Assembly: GCA_903905455.1 (NCBI GenBank)
Contig: CAIVGN010000071.1
Coordinates: forward strand, 1-45,091
DNA length: 45,091 nt
Direction: 5' to 3'
Origin: an uncultured Archangium sp.
Lineage (GTDB): Bacteria; Myxococcota; Myxococcia; Myxococcales; Myxococcaceae
Shown: positions 13,337-21,089 of the stretch, one piece after another
How the letters are laid out: the number at the start of each line of letters is the position of its first letter
How positions within the stretch are numbered: position 1 is the first letter of the stretch
Position numbers and translations under genes: made by a program
Notes under the pieces: generated by a model
Database searches by the model: none
Told to the model about the DNA's origin: nothing
What the model saw: only the letters and a program-made list of their open reading frames with translations

Positions 13337-13705
13337 ATGGGAACTTCGCCCGCGATGTCAGGACCTTCTTCGAACGAGCGGCTTCGGTGGGTTCTGGTGA
13401 CCCTGGCCCTTTCCCTTGTTGCCTGCGGCCCGGTGCAGTCGACGGCGTACCTCATCGACACCGAGACGATGCTCGAGGCCGCGCGCACCGCGCAGGCCGA
13501 CAAGCTCGCCCCCTACGAGTGGACCGCGGCCAACCTGTACTTCGCCAAGTCGAAGGAAGAGGTGGGCTACTCCGACTTCGAGCAGGCCGTGGACTACGGC
13601 AAGAAGGCCGTCGAGTTCGCCACCCGCGCGCGCGACACGGCGCTCAAGGTCGGCCGGCGCAACGAACCCCTGCCCTCTGATCCGCCCGTGGTGCCCACGC
13701 CATGA
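13337..13705 (+). CDS. DUF4398-type lipoprotein
   Basis: 122 residues from ATG 13337; ATG 13355 is also in frame. The lipobox LVAC follows a hydrophobic stretch, so the mature protein is lipid-anchored. The rest is a DUF4398-like pair of helices (AARTAQADKLAPYEWTAANL, AKSKEEVGYSDFEQAVDYGKK read in parts), the same helical module that opens the next gene's mature chain. The ATG of that TSP3-OmpA lipoprotein overlaps this stop (ATGA). The pair probably acts in the periplasm or at the outer membrane in envelope organisation. Confidence 0.85.
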   Translation: MGTSPAMSGPSSNERLRWVLVTLALSLVACGPVQSTAYLIDTETMLEAARTAQADKLAPYEWTAANLYFAKSKEEVGYSDFEQAVDYGKKAVEFATRARDTALKVGRRNEPLPSDPPVVPTP

Positions 13706-14886
13706 TCCGAAGGGCCTGCCTCGTCTTCTCGTCTCTCCTCGTCGCCTCGTGCCACAGCGGCCCCCAGATCCGCGCGTCGGGCGACATCATCAAGACCGAC
13801 ATCGAGCGCGCGCGGCGCTCCAACGCCCTGCGCTGCGCCCCCCGCGAGCTCGCTTCGGCCGAGGCCAACCTCGACTTCGCGCTCGGTGAGCTCGACGAGG
13901 GTAACTCGCAGCGCGCCTACGAGCACATCACCGAAGCGGAGGCGATGGCCAAGAAGGCCGTGGCCCTCTCGCGCGACTGCGCCCCGCGCCAGGTGGTGGT
14001 CAAGGAACAGCAGCCCCAGCTGGTGGTGAAGATCGAGGAGACCGACAAGGACGGCGACACGGTCCTCGACAAGGACGACCAGTGCCCCTCGCTGCCCGGC
14101 CCCGTGGAGAACAAGGGCTGCCCAGTCGAGGCCCCCAAGGACCGCGACGGCGACGGCATCTTCGACCCCTCGGATCACTGCGTCGATCAGCCCGAAGACT
14201 TCGACGGCTTCCAGGACGAAGACGGCTGCCCCGATCCCGACAACGACAACGACGGCATCCTCGACACGGCCGACAAGTGCCCCAACGAGGCGGGCCCCAT
14301 GCAGAACCTGGGCTGCCCCATCCTCGACAAGGATGGCGACGGGCTCAACGACGACAAGGACAAGTGTCCCAACGAGCCCGAGGACAAGGATGGCTTCGAG
14401 GACGAAGACGGGTGCCCTGACCTCGACAACGACGCCGACGGCCTGCCCGACGATCGCGACGACTGCCCGATGGTTCCCGGCCCCGTCGACAACAAGGGCT
14501 GCCCCCGCAAGTACTCGCTGGTCGCGGTCACCAAGGACCGCATCGAGATCAAGAAGCAGATCAAGTTCGCCACCGGCAGCGCGAAGATCGTCGGCGCCGA
14601 GAGCGAGAAGATCCTCGACGAGGTCGCCCTGGCCCTGAAGGACAACGCGCAGATCAAGAAGGTGCGCGTCGAGGGTCACACCGACTCGGTCGGCGACGAC
14701 GCCAAGAACCTGAAGCTCTCCCAGAACCGCGCCAACTCGGTGATGTCCGCGCTCATCAAGCGCGGGGTCGACCCGGTGCGCATGGAGGCCACGGGCTACG
14801 GCGAGACCAAGCCCATCGCGTCGAACTCCACCGCCGCGGGCAAGGCCGAGAACCGGCGCACCGAGTTCAACATCGCCGAGCAGTGA
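13702..14886 (+). CDS. TSP3-repeat OmpA/Pal-type lipoprotein
   Basis: 394 residues. A lipoprotein signal (SLLVASC) is followed by a DUF4398-like helical region (about 25-100). Then come about six thrombospondin type 3 calcium-binding repeats (about 113-275) with the DxDGDxxxDxxDxCP pattern, each closed by Cys pairs such as DDQCPSLPGP and NKGCP. A C-terminal OmpA domain (about 285-394) has VEGHTDSVG and KAENRRTEF, the diaminopimelate-binding residues. The protein should span from a membrane lipid anchor to peptidoglycan with a Ca2+-stiffened rod between. A convergent gap with a CCCGCGC/GCGCGGG hairpin follows. Confidence 0.93.
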   Translation: MIRRACLVFSSLLVASCHSGPQIRASGDIIKTDIERARRSNALRCAPRELASAEANLDFALGELDEGNSQRAYEHITEAEAMAKKAVALSRDCAPRQVVVKEQQPQLVVKIEETDKDGDTVLDKDDQCPSLPGPVENKGCPVEAPKDRDGDGIFDPSDHCVDQPEDFDGFQDEDGCPDPDNDNDGILDTADKCPNEAGPMQNLGCPILDKDGDGLNDDKDKCPNEPEDKDGFEDEDGCPDLDNDADGLPDDRDDCPMVPGPVDNKGCPRKYSLVAVTKDRIEIKKQIKFATGSAKIVGAESEKILDEVALALKDNAQIKKVRVEGHTDSVGDDAKNLKLSQNRANSVMSALIKRGVDPVRMEATGYGETKPIASNSTAAGKAENRRTEFNIAEQ

Positions 14887-14970: not shown

Positions 14971-15816
14971 CTACTCGCGCACGCGGGTCGAGGCCGACTG
15001 GGCCTGCCCGGGAGCCGCGATGGGGGCGATGGGCTCGAGCCCACGACCGCCGATGAGCGCCTCCGCTTCCTTCACGCTGGCCTGCACCGCGTCCACGCCG
15101 GTCAACAGGTCGTCGAGCTGCTCGGTGAGCTGGTCGGGGCTGGTCATGGTCAGCGCCTGGTCGCGCAGCAGCCGCACCGAGTTCTCGATGAGGTTCATCT
15201 GCCCCCGCGCGCGGGCGAGGAAGGTCTCGATCTCCTTGATGGTGTCGAGCCGCTTCTGGAGCACGTTGGCGTTCTTCCCCGCCAGCTCGCGCACCGACTC
15301 GTCGGTCATCTTTTCCTGCAGGCCCTGCTGCGCCTTGATCTGGCGCTCGAGGTCCTTCACGTCCACGGCCTGGAGGTAGGTCTCGGCCCGCCGGCAGGCC
15401 GCCGCGAGGCGCACGAAGGAGGCGTGCAGCTGGGCCAGCTTCTCCAGCTCGGTTTGGAGCAGGATCGCCTGGAACGACGGGTTGTTCGCCATGTCGCGTT
15501 CGATCTCGCGACGCAGCTCGTCCAGCGCCTTGGCCCGCTGCCACTCCCGCTCCGAGAGCTCCGACATCAGCTTCTCGACGCGGGCCCGGTCTTCCTTCTC
15601 GCGCGAGGCCCGGTCGGCTTCGCGCACCGCCCGCTGGAAGGGCTTGAAGTCCGGGCCGAACACCAGCCACAGCGCCTCGACCCCCAGCGCCCCCAGGCCG
15701 ATGAGCCAGTCGCCGGTGAGCGCCGACGCGGTGGCTGCCCCGCCCAACAACGACAGGTTGTAGACGTTGAGGAAGGCCGCCTTCAGGTAGTTGCTCGAGC
15801 CGCCGCCTTCGGACAT
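14971..15816 (-). CDS. Membrane coiled-coil protein, last gene of the ABC/OmpA module
   Basis: 281 residues. Two adjacent hydrophobic segments (about 12-55, LNVYNLSLLGGAATASALTG and WLIGLGALGVEALWLVFG) are followed by an almost entirely helical, charged region (65-260) with strong coiled-coil heptads (READRASREKEDRARVEKLM, TELEKLAQLHASFVRLAAA) and a short Pro/Ala tail. A family name is not evident. It lies 4 bp downstream of the ABC ATPase gene and so belongs to the same transcript. It could brace the transporter or form filaments under the membrane; both ideas are inference. Confidence 0.75.
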   Translation of the reverse strand: MSEGGGSSNYLKAAFLNVYNLSLLGGAATASALTGDWLIGLGALGVEALWLVFGPDFKPFQRAVREADRASREKEDRARVEKLMSELSEREWQRAKALDELRREIERDMANNPSFQAILLQTELEKLAQLHASFVRLAAACRRAETYLQAVDVKDLERQIKAQQGLQEKMTDESVRELAGKNANVLQKRLDTIKEIETFLARARGQMNLIENSVRLLRDQALTMTSPDQLTEQLDDLLTGVDAVQASVKEAEALIGGRGLEPIAPIAAPGQAQSASTRVRE

Positions 15817-15820
15817 GACG

Positions 15821-16687
15821 TCAGAGCCCCACGCGAATGTTGCCCTGCACGTTGGACGCGTGCAGCAGGTCGAGCACGTGGTTCTCCACGCGCTTGAACT
15901 CGGAGCTCTGCTTCACCGCGACCTCCCGGGACTCGAAGAACGGCACCTCGATGCGGTGCAGCACCTTGGCCGGCCGGTGCGAGAGCACGAAGATCACGTC
16001 GGCCAGGTACACCGCCTCCGCCACGTCGTGGGTCACGAAGAGCACCGTGTTGTCCTCGGTGCGCAGCACGTCGAGGATCAGCGACTGCATGCCCCAGCGC
16101 GTCTGCGGGTCGAGGGCGCCGAAGGGCTCGTCCATCAAGATCAGGCGGGGCTTGTTGACCAGCGTGCGCGCGATGGCCACCCGCTGCTTCATGCCGCCCG
16201 ACAGCTGCTTGGGCAGCGAGTCGGAGAAGTCCTTGAGGCCCACCTTCTCGATGATCGCCATCGCCTGCTTCCTGCGCTCGGCGGCGGGGATGCCCTGCAG
16301 CTCCAGGCCGTACTCCACGTTCTTGAGCACCGTGCGCCAGGCGAAGCTCGTGTAGCTCTGGAAGACCATGCCGCGATCGCGGCCCGTGCCTTCCACCGGC
16401 GCGCCGTCGACCAGCACCTCGCCGGAATCGGGCGTCATCAGCCCGGCCACCGACTTGAGGATGGTGCTCTTGCCGCAGCCCGAGGGCCCGAGGAACACGG
16501 CCAGCTCGCCGATGCCCGGCTTGTTGGCCACCGACAGGCTGACGTTCTCCACCGCCTGCACGGTGCGACCCTTGCGGTCGGTGTACGAGATGTAGAGGTC
16601 CTTGAGCTCGAGCTTGGGCGGGTTGCTCGCCGCCAGCTGGGCCTGCGGCGGGGCGGCGATGGCAGGGGCGACGGGGGTCTCAGCCAT
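15821..16687 (-). CDS. NitT/TauT-type ABC transporter ATP-binding protein
   Basis: 288 residues with all ATPase motifs: Walker A GPSGCGKST, Q-loop MVFQSYTSF, signature LSGGMKQR, Walker B LILMDEPFGALD and the switch His in FVTHDVAEA. The closest pattern is the nitrate/sulfonate/taurine branch. An extra Ala/Pro-rich N-terminus (residues 1-25) precedes the domain. Its start overlaps the permease stop by 8 bp. With the permease and the anchored binding protein it would form an importer; the substrate is unknown. Confidence 0.93.
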   Translation of the reverse strand: MAETPVAPAIAAPPQAQLAASNPPKLELKDLYISYTDRKGRTVQAVENVSLSVANKPGIGELAVFLGPSGCGKSTILKSVAGLMTPDSGEVLVDGAPVEGTGRDRGMVFQSYTSFAWRTVLKNVEYGLELQGIPAAERRKQAMAIIEKVGLKDFSDSLPKQLSGGMKQRVAIARTLVNKPRLILMDEPFGALDPQTRWGMQSLILDVLRTEDNTVLFVTHDVAEAVYLADVIFVLSHRPAKVLHRIEVPFFESREVAVKQSSEFKRVENHVLDLLHASNVQGNIRVGL

Positions 16688-17540
16688 TGGTCTCTCTCCA
16701 CGAGAAGAGCAGCCCGTTGAGCGCGCTGATCAGCAGGTCCGTCAGGAGGCCGATGACGCCGACCACCGCGATGGCGGCGAACGTCCAGTCGGGGCGCGCC
16801 AGCCGCTCGGCCACCTTGAAGACCGAGCCGATGCCGTCGGGGGCGTTCACGTACTCCGCGAGAATGATGTACGTCCAGGCGATCGCGTTCATCACCCGGA
16901 AGCTGTCGAAGATCTGCGGCATCGCCGCCTTGATCAACACCGAGGTGATCACCTGCCGCCTGGTCGCGCCCAGGGTGAAGGCCGTCTGCACCAGCTCCTC
17001 GGGCACCAGGCGCACCGCGTCCACCACCGCCGGCAGCAGGTAGACCACCGTGCCCAGGAAGAGGAAGGCGATCTTCTGCATCTCCCCGATGCCGAACCAG
17101 AGGATCATCAGGGGGATGAACGCGGTGATCGGCAGGTAGCGCATGGGCGCGACCACCGGCTCGAAGATCCGGTTGACGATCTCGAAGCTGCCCATGGCGA
17201 TGCCCAGCGGCACCGCCACCACCACCGACAGTCCCACCGCGATCACGATGCGCAACGCCGAGATGGCGATGGCCCGCGCGAGGTCCATCTCGAAGAACAG
17301 GTACAGCAGGCTCTTGACCACCTCGTCGGGCGCCGGAAGGAAGCTGTGCTTCACCAGCGGCTCGAGCTCGCCCAAGCGATCCACCTGCACGTAGCTGGCG
17401 ACGCACCAGGCGGCCAGCAGCACCACCACGCTGACGCTCGACGCGATGCGCGCCGGCCCCGCGGGGATGGTGCTGCGCAAGCCCCACAACGAGGGCCGGG
17501 GGCCCTTGCCGCGGGGTTTGGGTTTCGACTCAGTTGGCAT
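16680..17540 (-). CDS. NitT/TauT-type ABC transporter permease
   Basis: 286 residues and about six transmembrane helices, with the conserved cytoplasmic loop typical of the family (LGATRRQVITSVLIKAAMPQ), which contacts the ATPase. A basic, Pro-rich N-terminal tail (MPTESKPKPRGKGPRPS) is unusually long. It starts 11 bp inside the end of the binding-protein gene. The single permease implies a homodimer. Neighbours show it belongs with a peptidoglycan-tethered binding protein, an atypical setting. Confidence 0.93.
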   Translation of the reverse strand: MPTESKPKPRGKGPRPSLWGLRSTIPAGPARIASSVSVVVLLAAWCVASYVQVDRLGELEPLVKHSFLPAPDEVVKSLLYLFFEMDLARAIAISALRIVIAVGLSVVVAVPLGIAMGSFEIVNRIFEPVVAPMRYLPITAFIPLMILWFGIGEMQKIAFLFLGTVVYLLPAVVDAVRLVPEELVQTAFTLGATRRQVITSVLIKAAMPQIFDSFRVMNAIAWTYIILAEYVNAPDGIGSVFKVAERLARPDWTFAAIAVVGVIGLLTDLLISALNGLLFSWRETNG

Positions 17541-19179
17541 TGAGGACGACCTTGATGTCGGTGCGCCGGTTCAGCGCGCGCCCATCTTCGGTCTCGTTGG
17601 GGGCCAACGGCTTGGCGCTCCCCTGGCCCACGGTGATGAAGCGCTCCGCGGCGATGCTGAAGTTCTTCACCAGGTAGGCCTTCACCGAGTCGGCCCGGCG
17701 CGCCGAGAGCGTCTTGTTCGCCGCCTCGCTGCCGCGGCTGTCGGTGTTGCCCTCGACCTGCAGGTAGGTGTTGCCGAAGGCCAGCATCGTCTCGCCCAGC
17801 GAATCGAGCGTGAAGTAGCTGCCGGGCATGATCTCCTCGGAGCCCGTGGTGAAGTGGATCGACAGGCTCTTGTTCACGATGGCCCGGTCCGAGACCTTGG
17901 GCTTGTCCTTGAACGCGAACGACTCCTCGACCTTCTGCGAGGCGTATTCCTTGGCCAGCGCGCCCACGAAGCGGCTGTCGCGGAAGTCGGGGGCGTCCAC
18001 CACCGAGCTGACCACGCCCTTCTTGCGCCAGATGACGAAGGCGCCGTTGAACAGCGAGTCGAAGTAGGACTTGGGCCCCGAGAGCCCGAAGAAGAGCGCG
18101 TTGTCCGCGTAGCTCGTCAGCTTGAGGCCCGAGAGCATGCCCGACACGTCGTCGGTGGTGAGCTTGAGCGCGTCGGCGATCAGCTGGTTGGTGCTCTGCG
18201 GGTCTTCCTTCATCACGCTGATGGCGTCGAACCAGCCGGAGACGAAGGCCTGCACCGCGCCGGGCGCCGTGTCCACCAGCTGCTGGCGGGCCACCAGCGT
18301 GTCCGCGATGACGTTGGTGGCCGAGGTGGTGGACACCAGCACGTGCGCTTCCTTCTCCCGCGCCGTCACCGCGCCCGAGAGGTCGGGCTCCCAGGTGACC
18401 GCGGCGTCGACCTTGCCGGCCTTGAACATCGAGGCCGCCAGGGGCGCCTCGGCGGTGAAGATCACGTTCTTCTCGATCTCCGCGCGCTCCTGCGGCGAGA
18501 GCCCCGACTGCGCCAGGAGGAACAGCAGCAGCCAGTGCGACGGCGTGTACTGGGTGCAGGCGATCTTCTTGCCCTTGAGGTCCTCGACCGACTTGATGGT
18601 CTTGAGCGAGACGATGCCGTCGCCGCCGCGGCTCCAGTCTTCCTGGATGATGGCGCGCGCCTTGAGGCCCTTCTCCTTGAGCGCGCTCGCCTCGCGCGAG
18701 AACGAGTCCACGGTGTCCCACATGATGTCGATGTCGCCGGAGATGAACGCCGCCAGCTTGGCGCTGGGGTCCTCGAGGAGCACGAACTCCACGTCGAGGC
18801 CGTACTTCTTCTTGTAGAGCGAGCTGGGCGAACCGGGCTTCATGCCGCCGTTGGCCACGATGCCGGGCGCATGACCGGCCCAGGTGTTGATGCCCACCTT
18901 CAGCGGGCGGTTGAGCATCTGCGTGCCCACGTTCGCCGTGCCGGTGGCGTTGACCTGCACGCCGCCCTCGCGGGGCGCGTCGCTGATGCCCTGGTTGAGC
19001 GCGGCGAAGTCGTCCTTCGACACGTCACCGCCGCCGAGCGCCTTCTTGGCCTCTTCCTGCTTCGCGCCGGCGCCCGCCCAGCTGCGCACCTCGTCGCCGT
19101 ACTTCTTCCAGCCCACGAACCCGATGACGCCCAGCGCCACCAGCGCGATGAACAACTTCCCGAACGGAGTCAGTTTCAT
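17530..19179 (-). CDS. ABC solute-binding protein fused to an OmpA peptidoglycan-binding domain
   Basis: 549 residues. Residues 8-24 are an uncleaved-looking hydrophobic anchor (LFIALVALGVIGFVGW). An Ala/Gly/Asp-rich spacer follows, then a periplasmic NMT1/SsuA-like binding fold (about 92-410: VGINTWAGHAPGIV, DPSAKLAAFISGDIDIMW, AAVTWEPDLSGAV). A complete OmpA-type domain closes the protein (about 435-549), with GNTDSRG and ALNRRTDIKV carrying the peptidoglycan-binding Asp and Arg. The protein would tie an importer to the cell wall. An AAGGG ribosome site precedes the ATG at 19179. Similar SBP-OmpA fusions have been annotated by sequence in other bacteria, but I know of no experimental function. 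Confidence 0.93.
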   Translation of the reverse strand: MKLTPFGKLFIALVALGVIGFVGWKKYGDEVRSWAGAGAKQEEAKKALGGGDVSKDDFAALNQGISDAPREGGVQVNATGTANVGTQMLNRPLKVGINTWAGHAPGIVANGGMKPGSPSSLYKKKYGLDVEFVLLEDPSAKLAAFISGDIDIMWDTVDSFSREASALKEKGLKARAIIQEDWSRGGDGIVSLKTIKSVEDLKGKKIACTQYTPSHWLLLFLLAQSGLSPQERAEIEKNVIFTAEAPLAASMFKAGKVDAAVTWEPDLSGAVTAREKEAHVLVSTTSATNVIADTLVARQQLVDTAPGAVQAFVSGWFDAISVMKEDPQSTNQLIADALKLTTDDVSGMLSGLKLTSYADNALFFGLSGPKSYFDSLFNGAFVIWRKKGVVSSVVDAPDFRDSRFVGALAKEYASQKVEESFAFKDKPKVSDRAIVNKSLSIHFTTGSEEIMPGSYFTLDSLGETMLAFGNTYLQVEGNTDSRGSEAANKTLSARRADSVKAYLVKNFSIAAERFITVGQGSAKPLAPNETEDGRALNRRTDIKVVLNAN

Positions 19180-19209
19180 GATCGGCCCTTGATCGACGTT
19201 GAAGGAGAA

Positions 19210-19899
19210 TTACGGCTTGGCGGCGGGTGCCGCAGGAGAGTTGAAGAACTCGAGCACGCGGTGCACCTGGCCCTTGCGCCCGTCGGCGGCGGCCGCCAGC
19301 GAGGCCAGGGTCTCGGTGCGCTTGGTGATGTCGGCGCGCAGCGAGATCACCTTGTCCTCGAGCTGCGCGATCTGCGCCGTGGCGTCGGTGATCGCCTTGG
19401 CCGTGGCCTGCTCGTTGAGGCGCACGTAGGTGTCGAGGGCCTTGAGCTGCGTCTGCGCGGCGCCGACGATCTTGGTGACGTCGAAGCCGAAGGCCTTGAG
19501 CGAGGCCTCGACGATCTGGCGCTTGATGTCGACCGGCGTCGCCTCGGGCAGGCCCTTGAGGAGCTCCTCGGCCTTGCGCACGCGATCGAGCTCGCTGGCG
19601 TCGAGGCCGCTGGTCTTGAACACCGCGTCGAAGTCCACCACCGCGGGGGTCACCGGCCCGGTGGGGGCCGGCACGCTCATCGCCGGGCGGGCGACGGCGG
19701 CGGACGGGACCGGGGCAGGGCCCACGTGGGGGGCGCCCTTCCTCGGCGCTGCCTGCCCGGCGAGCTCGGCGACGATGTCGGCCGCGCTCTTCTCGCCGTC
19801 ATCGGCACCCACCGCGGGCGTTCCTTCGGCCGGCGTGTCATCCTTCGCCTCGACAAACAGACCGAGCAGCTTCGACCCCAGGCCTTTTTCTTCGGGCAT
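19210..19899 (-). CDS. Helical protein, first gene of the ABC/OmpA module
   Basis: 229 residues from ATG 19899, chosen because AAGGAG lies 6 bases upstream; an upstream GTG at 19920 would include that site. There is no signal peptide. The N-terminal half is low-complexity Ala/Pro/Gly, the C-terminal half (about 90-220) is helical with coiled-coil character (TDATAQIAQLEDKVISLRAD), ending in VLEFFNSPAAPAAKP. It opens the five-gene operon, 30 bp before the binding protein. Family not recognised; a cytoplasmic partner of the transporter is likely. Confidence 0.75.
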   Translation of the reverse strand: MPEEKGLGSKLLGLFVEAKDDTPAEGTPAVGADDGEKSAADIVAELAGQAAPRKGAPHVGPAPVPSAAVARPAMSVPAPTGPVTPAVVDFDAVFKTSGLDASELDRVRKAEELLKGLPEATPVDIKRQIVEASLKAFGFDVTKIVGAAQTQLKALDTYVRLNEQATAKAITDATAQIAQLEDKVISLRADITKRTETLASLAAAADGRKGQVHRVLEFFNSPAAPAAKP

Positions 19900-19958
19900 G
19901 GCCTGCTCCTTAGCAGACACAAATTCCGCATCACCGCGAAATATGGTGAGGTTTTCCC

Positions 19959-21089
19959 ATGGCCAAGTTCGAAGTCCACATCCCCGCCAGTGACGGAAAT
20001 GGCTTCAACGTGACGCTCAAGGTGGGGGCCGACAATTGGATGTCGGCGCTCAAGGCCGGCATGCAGAAGCTCGGCGAGCAGGGCACGGTCAGCCAGAACG
20101 TGATGGTGGATGTGCAGGAGGACAACTCCATTCACGTCACCGAGGCTGCCTCGGGCCGCGTGTTCCGCATCCGCGAGCTCACCGACGACGAGGTCTCGCG
20201 CGCGCAGGTCAAGCGCCCCTCGCAGATTCGCCCCGCGGCCGCTCCCGCCCGCGTCGAGGTGAAGACCGAGCCGGGCCTGCCGGCGGTGAAGCTGCCCGAT
20301 CTCGACAAGACCCAGCCCATCCCCCGCAGCGCGCTCGAGGCCACCCGGCCCGCCGGCGAGCCGATGAAGATCGTGCACCCGCCGTCGCTCGAGAAGACGC
20401 AGCCCGCGACGCCGGCGCCCACGAACCTCACGCCCGCCCCCCGCGCCCAGCCGCGCACCAACAAGTCTTCGGCGCGCATCGAGCTGCGGGACGTCGAGGA
20501 GCTGGTGCAGCCCCTCAAGCCCACCACCGGCAGCATCGGCCGCGTCAAGTCGAGCCCCAACGTGGCTCGCTCGCAGCGCCAGGAGACCGAGGAGATCCTC
20601 GCCGACATCTTCCTGCGCGTGGTGGAGATCAGCGCCAAGCCCACCCTCGAAGAGGCGATGGACTTCATCCTCGAGCTGGCGATGGAGAAGGTGCCCTGCG
20701 AGGCCGGCTCGGTGTTGCGCGCAGACACGGCCACCGGCGATCTCACCTTCCTCGTGGCCCGTGGCCCCAAGGCCAAGGAGATCCTCAAGGCCAAGCTGGT
20801 CGTGCCCGCGGGCACCGGCATCGCCGGCTTCTGCGCCGCCGAGGGCGTGTCGGTGGCGGTCAGCGACGTCGAGAAAGACCCGCGCTTCTACGCCGAGGTC
20901 GGTGAGCGCGTGGGCTACGCGACCCGTTCGATGCTCTGCGCGCCCATGATGACCCGTGGCCACTCGTTCGGCGCCGTGCAGTTGCTCAACCGCAAGGGCG
21001 GCCCCCTGTTCCTCGAACACGAGGTCGGGGTGCTGGCCTACCTCGCGCACCAGGCCGCGCTGTACCTGAACCACAAGCTGCTCGAGTGA
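19959..21089 (+). CDS. GAF-domain protein
   Basis: 376 residues. A small N-terminal domain (1-75, KFEVHIPASDGNGFNVTLKV) resembles a compact alpha/beta module. A Pro/Lys/Thr-rich linker with repeated DKTQP/EKTQP motifs (110-180) follows, then a GAF domain (about 205-376: EAGSVLRADTATGDLTFLVA, GTGIAGFCA, YATRSMLCAPM, GAVQLLNR, FLEHEVGVLAYLAHQAA). The ligand is unknown, and no output domain is present, so it should act through a partner. Divergent from the ABC/OmpA module with 59 bp between starts, which makes shared regulation possible. The linker TQP motifs could be phosphorylation sites. Confidence 0.88.
   Translation: MAKFEVHIPASDGNGFNVTLKVGADNWMSALKAGMQKLGEQGTVSQNVMVDVQEDNSIHVTEAASGRVFRIRELTDDEVSRAQVKRPSQIRPAAAPARVEVKTEPGLPAVKLPDLDKTQPIPRSALEATRPAGEPMKIVHPPSLEKTQPATPAPTNLTPAPRAQPRTNKSSARIELRDVEELVQPLKPTTGSIGRVKSSPNVARSQRQETEEILADIFLRVVEISAKPTLEEAMDFILELAMEKVPCEAGSVLRADTATGDLTFLVARGPKAKEILKAKLVVPAGTGIAGFCAAEGVSVAVSDVEKDPRFYAEVGERVGYATRSMLCAPMMTRGHSFGAVQLLNRKGGPLFLEHEVGVLAYLAHQAALYLNHKLLE

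Follow-up and report, generated by a model that had tools for sequence, protein, structure and literature searches.

Operons that place an ABC transporter beside membrane-remodelling proteins have been described from sequence by Ravi et al. (2024; PMC11237479), whose passage on them lists PspA, ‘Snf7 homologs with a TM segment’, an AAA+ ATPase with an inactive N-terminal domain, an ABC ATPase, a permease and a PBPB-OmpA protein, with OGG56892.1 as an example. A link between membrane remodelling and solute transport, with OmpA touching peptidoglycan, was proposed there without experiments; the same source notes PspA together with Snf7 in Deltaproteobacteria (AKJ06548.1), and states that the control of assembly of PspA homologues lacking an associated AAA ATPase is unknown (PMC11237479). 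A preliminary description of the five-gene set studied here had held that no function was known for the whole set, a statement that is superseded insofar as the operon type had already been described in that paper. A literature search retrieved no experimental study on any member of the module, and likewise none on the function of the fusion of a solute-binding protein with an OmpA domain (SBP-OmpA) that it encodes.

Two further groups of described proteins resemble parts of the set. TauABC and SsuABC have the same binding-domain fold and the same types of permease and ATPase. In TauA, Glu106 is essential for taurine binding, and the sulfonate is held by the main-chain NH groups of Gly61, Gly79 and Thr132, Gln30 being a further sulfonate-binding position (PMC6906117, from which the TauA pocket residues used below were taken). 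MotB, ZorB and other inner-membrane OmpA-domain proteins display the same succession of inner-membrane helix, linker and OmpA domain as SBP-OmpA.

The window, i.e. the whole stretch of 45,091 nucleotides that was analysed, is contig 71 of an 8.6 Mb draft genome of an uncultured Archangium sp. The five-gene operon reported at 14971-19899 was confirmed: it comprises five tightly packed genes, all on the minus strand, in the order P5, SBP-OmpA, permease, ATPase and P1. Its features are as follows.

19906..19911, minus strand: AAGGAG resembling a Shine-Dalgarno sequence, ahead of the P5 start codon (ATG at 19899), from sequence
19210..19899, minus strand: P5, first gene of the operon, soluble helical/coiled-coil protein of 229 aa, without a Pfam or NCBIfam family
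17530..19179, minus strand: SBP-OmpA, 549 aa, from Pfam, a hydrophobic segment and a structure model
17965..18912, minus strand: substrate-binding domain of SBP-OmpA, with invariant residues across 27 aligned sequences
17542..17862, minus strand: OmpA domain of SBP-OmpA, with D480 (of NTD) and R495, from alignment with OprF and others
16680..17540, minus strand: ABC permease of TauC/SsuC type, 286 aa, PF00528 E 3.7e-18
15821..16687, minus strand: ABC ATPase of NitT/TauT type, 288 aa, PF00005 E 1.4e-31
14971..15816, minus strand: P1, membrane-anchored helical protein of 281 aa, without a Pfam or NCBIfam family

SBP-OmpA and the permease gene overlap by 11 bp and the permease and ATPase genes by 8 bp, whilst gaps of 4 bp and 30 bp separate the ATPase gene from P1 and P5 from SBP-OmpA, respectively. 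The right end at 19899 given in the preliminary description proved correct, as the ATG there lies behind the AAGGAG (19911-19906) and agrees with the starts of homologues; a longer GTG open reading frame reaching 19920 is probably not the P5 gene. Pfam searches detected NMT1 (5e-11) and OmpA (1e-18) within one protein, along with ABC_tran (1e-31) and BPD_transp_1 (4e-18) in the ATPase and permease. Neither P5 nor P1 matched any entry of Pfam or NCBIfam, so that they represent two protein families for which these collections hold no model.

Like the operons of Ravi et al., that of the window combines SBP-OmpA, a permease and an ABC ATPase, and outer relatives of it additionally possess PspA and AAA+. 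The window's operon itself, however, contains neither PspA (or Snf7) nor the two-domain AAA+ gene; P5 does not figure in the passage of Ravi et al. on these operons, and P1 has no detectable homology to Snf7 or PspA. As both PspA and AAA+ are missing, the window's operon is a variant rather than a standard member of the described type. What is new here is the constant partnership of P5 and P1, the PspA-less variant, and a binding pocket in which the amine side of TauA appears to have been kept but its sulfonate side dismantled.

The two ends of the operon are flanked by genes of other kinds. A DUF4398 lipoprotein-like gene and a gene for a DUF4398/TSP3-repeat/OmpA protein (13337-14886) converge on the operon, and this pair, a possible outer-membrane-to-wall counterpart, adjoins the module in many core-clade loci. 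A GAF-domain gene (19959-21089) is divergent from P5, with about 60 bp between the two starts, and its position next to the module is conserved in core-clade loci only.

The transporter proteins display the characteristics of a NitT/TauT importer, namely the ATPase motifs, a BPD_transp_1 permease of TauC/SsuC type and a binding domain of NMT1/TauA fold. The ATPase retains Walker A (GPSGCGKST), signature (LSGGMKQR), Walker B (LILMDEP) and THD switch motifs and is TauB-like in NCBIfam (E 1e-65). The permease is TauC/SaoP-like in the same collection, its match to the TauC model (E 1.5e-33) falling below the equivalog cut-off, and the EAA coupling loop is intact. Judged from these motifs, the importer looks fully functional; since the ATPase and coupling motifs are intact and the pocket is conserved, import appears not to have been replaced. 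Three features nonetheless distinguish the operon from TauABC and SsuABC: its binding protein would be tethered to both membrane and wall by fusion, the sulfonate-binding positions have become Pro and Asp, and sulfonate-use genes were not seen adjoining it.

SBP-OmpA consists of an N-terminal membrane helix (residues about 7-28), a linker, an NMT1/TauA-type domain (about 90-405) and an OmpA domain (about 440-546). The N-terminal helix lacks a lipobox and is taken as an uncleaved anchor. In a structure model (pLDDT 78.5), the protein matched TauA with a Z-score of 29.0 (2.4 Å over 288 residues) and SsuA with one of about 26, and the OmpA part matched TagL, OprF and the OmpA of A. baumannii (3td5). 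The OmpA domain is complete, as had been claimed, covering positions 2-98 of the 98 of PF00691. Amongst the aligned SBP-OmpA sequences R495 is kept in all 27 and D480 in 26; these residues occupy the positions of the Asp and Arg that bind diaminopimelate in A. baumannii OmpA. It is inferred that the domain would bind peptidoglycan. What separates SBP-OmpA from MotB and ZorB is its middle domain, which is a solute-binding protein, and an operon devoid of a MotA or ZorA partner.

Within the binding domain, D137, T156, D158, D181, D187, P213, S214, W263 and D293 are invariant across 27 sequences extending down to 27% identity, and the pocket residues are amongst its most conserved positions. Comparison of the pocket with that of TauA, which the preliminary description had called for, was made against a template of about 21% identity. 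Sequence alignment placed D187 opposite TauA Glu106 and W263 opposite Trp176, and D293 falls opposite Asp205 once a gap in the alignment is closed manually; T99 could be set opposite Gln30 by hand only. In place of Gly61, Gly79 and Thr132 of the anion site stand P138, D158 and P213, the sulfonate site thus not being reproduced, and the invariant D137 and D158 are both acids. Because D187, W263 and D293 match whilst the sites of the NH groups have become P138, D158 and P213, the amine side of the pocket appears to have been kept and the anion side dismantled. Taurine or another sulfonate was accordingly rejected as the ligand, as the pocket does not fit it. The closest unfused relatives found on plasmids include importers located beside agmatinase or histidine-use genes, most of which have a D-x-S-x-x-x-D motif in common. 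From these residues and contexts, the ligand is most likely to be a nitrogen compound that is small and either cationic or neutral; the wall-derived ligand that had been put forward gained no support, the closest unfused relatives including the catabolic importers just named.

P5 is composed of an N-terminal GLGSKLLGLF motif, a Pro/Ala linker and a helical C-terminal half ending in VLEFF. A relationship with PspA was considered and was not detectable, a 16-residue N-terminal resemblance being within noise; an examination of the N-terminus for an amphipathic helix gave no convincing result, and none is claimed. P1 has a clear hydrophobic segment at residues 35-56 together with a weaker one, and its model adds a helix at 18-34; beyond the membrane segment or segments within 18-56, the chain continues for about 200 residues as long helices in this model (pLDDT 82). 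Homology of P1 to PspA was not detectable by hhalign (probability 0.3%). Fold searches with P1 returned generic helical matches, including BAR domains and designed proteins, with Z-scores up to 12, and an ESCRT-III entry was absent among the matches listed, which proves nothing either way. Pfam searches did not bear out an identification of P1 as Snf7, as P1 has no match and Snf7 hits reached the cut-off nowhere in the 58 genomes searched, and XpaC (PF10112) was discarded, P1 not matching it and the one weak hit in 146 genomes lying elsewhere than P1. If the AKJ accessions are those of Archangium gephyra, the Snf7 protein with a TM segment of the described operons may be P1.

The preliminary description had proposed that the five genes form a module, to be abandoned if the helical genes were not conserved beside SBP-OmpA elsewhere. 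A search of 146 Myxococcota genomes bore out the proposal, both helical genes staying with SBP-OmpA. SBP-OmpA was found in 14 of these genomes and the P5 family in 15, namely the same 14 and G139. The latter is not a clean exception, since it has a divergent cluster of its own, in which an OmpA-domain protein of the SBP-OmpA type, with relatives of the permease, ATPase and P1, lies near one of two weak P5 matches. The P1 family is more widely distributed (84 of 146 genomes). Beyond the Myxococcota, sampling consisted of a contig scan and a plasmid search. The contig scan yielded 38 loci, about 25 of which display the five genes in the same order, and the nearest relatives were Myxococcota MAGs named Archangium, Myxococcaceae and Myxococcales. 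Pairwise distances of the five genes were correlated across 19 loci (Spearman 0.75-0.92, uncorrected for clade-wide relatedness), which, with the conserved order, speaks against a chance arrangement. Synteny within the core clade was rejected as proof of a module, as it extends there to GAF, TruD and further neighbours. These core-clade flanks (GAF, TruD and TSP3-OmpA) are absent from a second gene context, and the constant part is therefore the five genes; it is by this second context only that the module is proven.

PspA and AAA+ genes recur beside the module in relatives. In loci L041, L044, L045 and L053, which represent the second context, PspA is located between P5 and SBP-OmpA (PF04012 E 5.4e-18 in L053) and a two-domain AAA+ gene follows P1, the N-terminal domain of the outer relatives' AAA+ being without an AAA match. 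In the divergent L112 (genome G034), whose SBP-OmpA scores far lower, PspA (E 7.8e-13) is followed in turn by SBP-OmpA, permease, ATPase, P1 and AAA+, and P5 also adjoins PspA-AAA+ in G139 (L100). In L052 and L106 (G005) the set is incomplete or P5 is at the opposite end. Linkage to PspA is not universal, as L051 and L062 (G023), both outside the core clade, lack PspA in the slot; in G023, whose SBP-OmpA is 34% identical, P5, SBP-OmpA, permease and ATPase occur in order and are followed by a P1-like protein, read by eye. Across the 146 Myxococcota genomes, 99 P1-family places were found, 74 of which, in 74 genomes, had a PspA gene at a distance of 6 kb or less; of the other 25, nine belonged to full five-gene modules in the family of the window, and several were on short contigs.

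The genome to which the window belongs encodes a sole PspA, on a different contig (C133:103725-104351), with a two-domain AAA+ nearby that occurs at C133 only; in this AAA+, Pfam matched AAA only in the C-terminal domain. The second locus as a whole (C133:93508-104351; L061, L064) contains PspA, an OmpA-less SBP, a P1 relative, a lipoprotein-like gene, a LolD/MacB-like ABC, a Ser/Thr kinase and AAA+, and was found in nearly all examined genomes of the window's family, whether or not they harbour the module. It resembles the operon in that a TauA-type SBP and a P1 relative (26% identity) are encoded in line with each other, but differs from it by its PspA, OmpA-less SBP, LolD/MacB-like ABC ATPase and AAA+, and in lacking P5 and the NitT permease. 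As the C133 PspA is only 15% identical to the operonic PspA type, it represents a paralogue and not a moved copy. The PspA and AAA+ of C133 may act in trans for the window's operon, and the PspA-less clade constitutes a natural experiment on which parts depend on each other.

The reading we favour, to which we give an even chance of being right, is that the operon encodes a working, wall-tethered NitT/TauT importer of a nitrogen-containing ligand, being the transporter half of a PspA/AAA+ system to which P1 and P5 link it. The N-terminal helix would keep SBP-OmpA in the inner membrane as its OmpA domain grips peptidoglycan, and the TauA-type domain would capture a small ligand that contains nitrogen and is probably cationic or neutral, for delivery to the permease and ATPase. 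P1 would reside in the membrane with its helices probably cytoplasmic and, with the cytoplasmic P5, would connect the transporter to membrane-bound scaffolds of the PspA type, such that assembly on the membrane might change when wall contact is lost or the ligand arrives. The system served would be PspA/AAA+ (bacterial ESCRT-III-like) membrane maintenance. The coupling role ascribed to P1 and P5 rests on gene linkage, as homology to PspA or Snf7 was not detectable in either. Counting against this reading are also the lack of PspA and AAA+ in the window's operon, the distance of the C133 paralogue from the operonic PspA, and the relatives outside the core clade in which PspA is missing from the slot. 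The preliminary description had argued that ordinary nutrient import does not need such a fusion; the repeated linkage to PspA and AAA+ upholds this view in part, whereas the apparently fully functional importer speaks against it. An ordinary nutrient importer, with the binding protein tethered so as to stay near its permease, P1 and P5 as structural helpers, and the PspA and AAA+ of relatives merely repairing the membrane around the complex, is possible though unlikely. Such an importer would accord with the intact motifs of ATPase and permease, the strongly conserved pocket, the catabolic importers of histidine and agmatine operons amongst its closest unfused relatives, and the stability of the PspA-less version as a clade, but catabolic enzymes were not seen to accompany the module in any of the contexts examined, and P1 is tied to PspA even where the OmpA fusion and the NitT permease are lacking.

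A more novel form of coupling, in which SBP-OmpA would detect a small nitrogen ligand and wall contact and P1 and P5 would relay both to PspA and AAA+, the wall-tethered importer gating ESCRT-III-like remodelling and the window's clade having uncoupled the importer half to act on the PspA of the second locus or on a new target, is somewhat more doubtful than ordinary import. Less likely again is a sensor without net transport, comparable to FtsEX or BceAB, in which ligand or wall contact would alter the ATPase cycle and P1 and P5 would signal to the scaffold. A binding protein tethered from membrane to wall, the constant membrane and cytoplasmic helical partners, and linkage to PspA (in single relatives also to TerB in L106 and to an SPFH-like protein, below the Pfam cut-off, in L055) are all consistent with sensing; the permease, however, has an EAA motif and resembles the importers TauC and SsuC, not the FtsX or MacB type. 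Finally, the OmpA domain, with its conserved wall-binding residues, might serve to anchor some machine, PspA-type or other, at sites on the wall, the importer part being vestigial. This we regard as very improbable, because the pocket residues are amongst the most conserved positions of the binding domain and the ATPase motifs are intact, neither of which is to be expected once an importer has become vestigial. A transporter possibly touching the wall, together with two constant helical partners, is a candidate link by which PspA-type scaffolds without an obvious sensor may read the state of the envelope. Anti-phage defence was also considered and rejected, PADLOC having returned only cross-hits of the ABC/AAA-type ATPase and ZorB-OmpA kinds.

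Genes of the TerB, SPFH and TelA types belong to membrane-stress gene sets. A TerB-domain gene (L106:11123-11578, G005) is located between AAA+ and P5 in the rearranged operon of that genome. Locus L055 (JAUSIT010000016.1), labelled Nanoarchaeota, has SBP-OmpA, permease and ATPase together with a P5-like gene, whilst its PspA slot is occupied by a gene for a helical protein with a TM segment, and the SPFH-like protein is in the same gene row; given the OmpA wall domain, the contig is probably bacterial and its bin mislabelled. A cluster on plasmid pAM7 of Vibrio rotiferianus (L060, NZ_AP019800.1) has in common with the window an SBP-OmpA (27% identity, annotated ‘phosphate ABC transporter substrate-binding/OmpA family protein’), a NitT-type ATPase and a permease, but adds TelA, a vWA protein, a second SBP-OmpA-like protein and a third SBP. 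Two uncharacterised genes of this cluster were tested and had no similarity to P1 or P5. The Vibrio cluster encodes three NMT1-type SBP domains, two of which are fused to OmpA.
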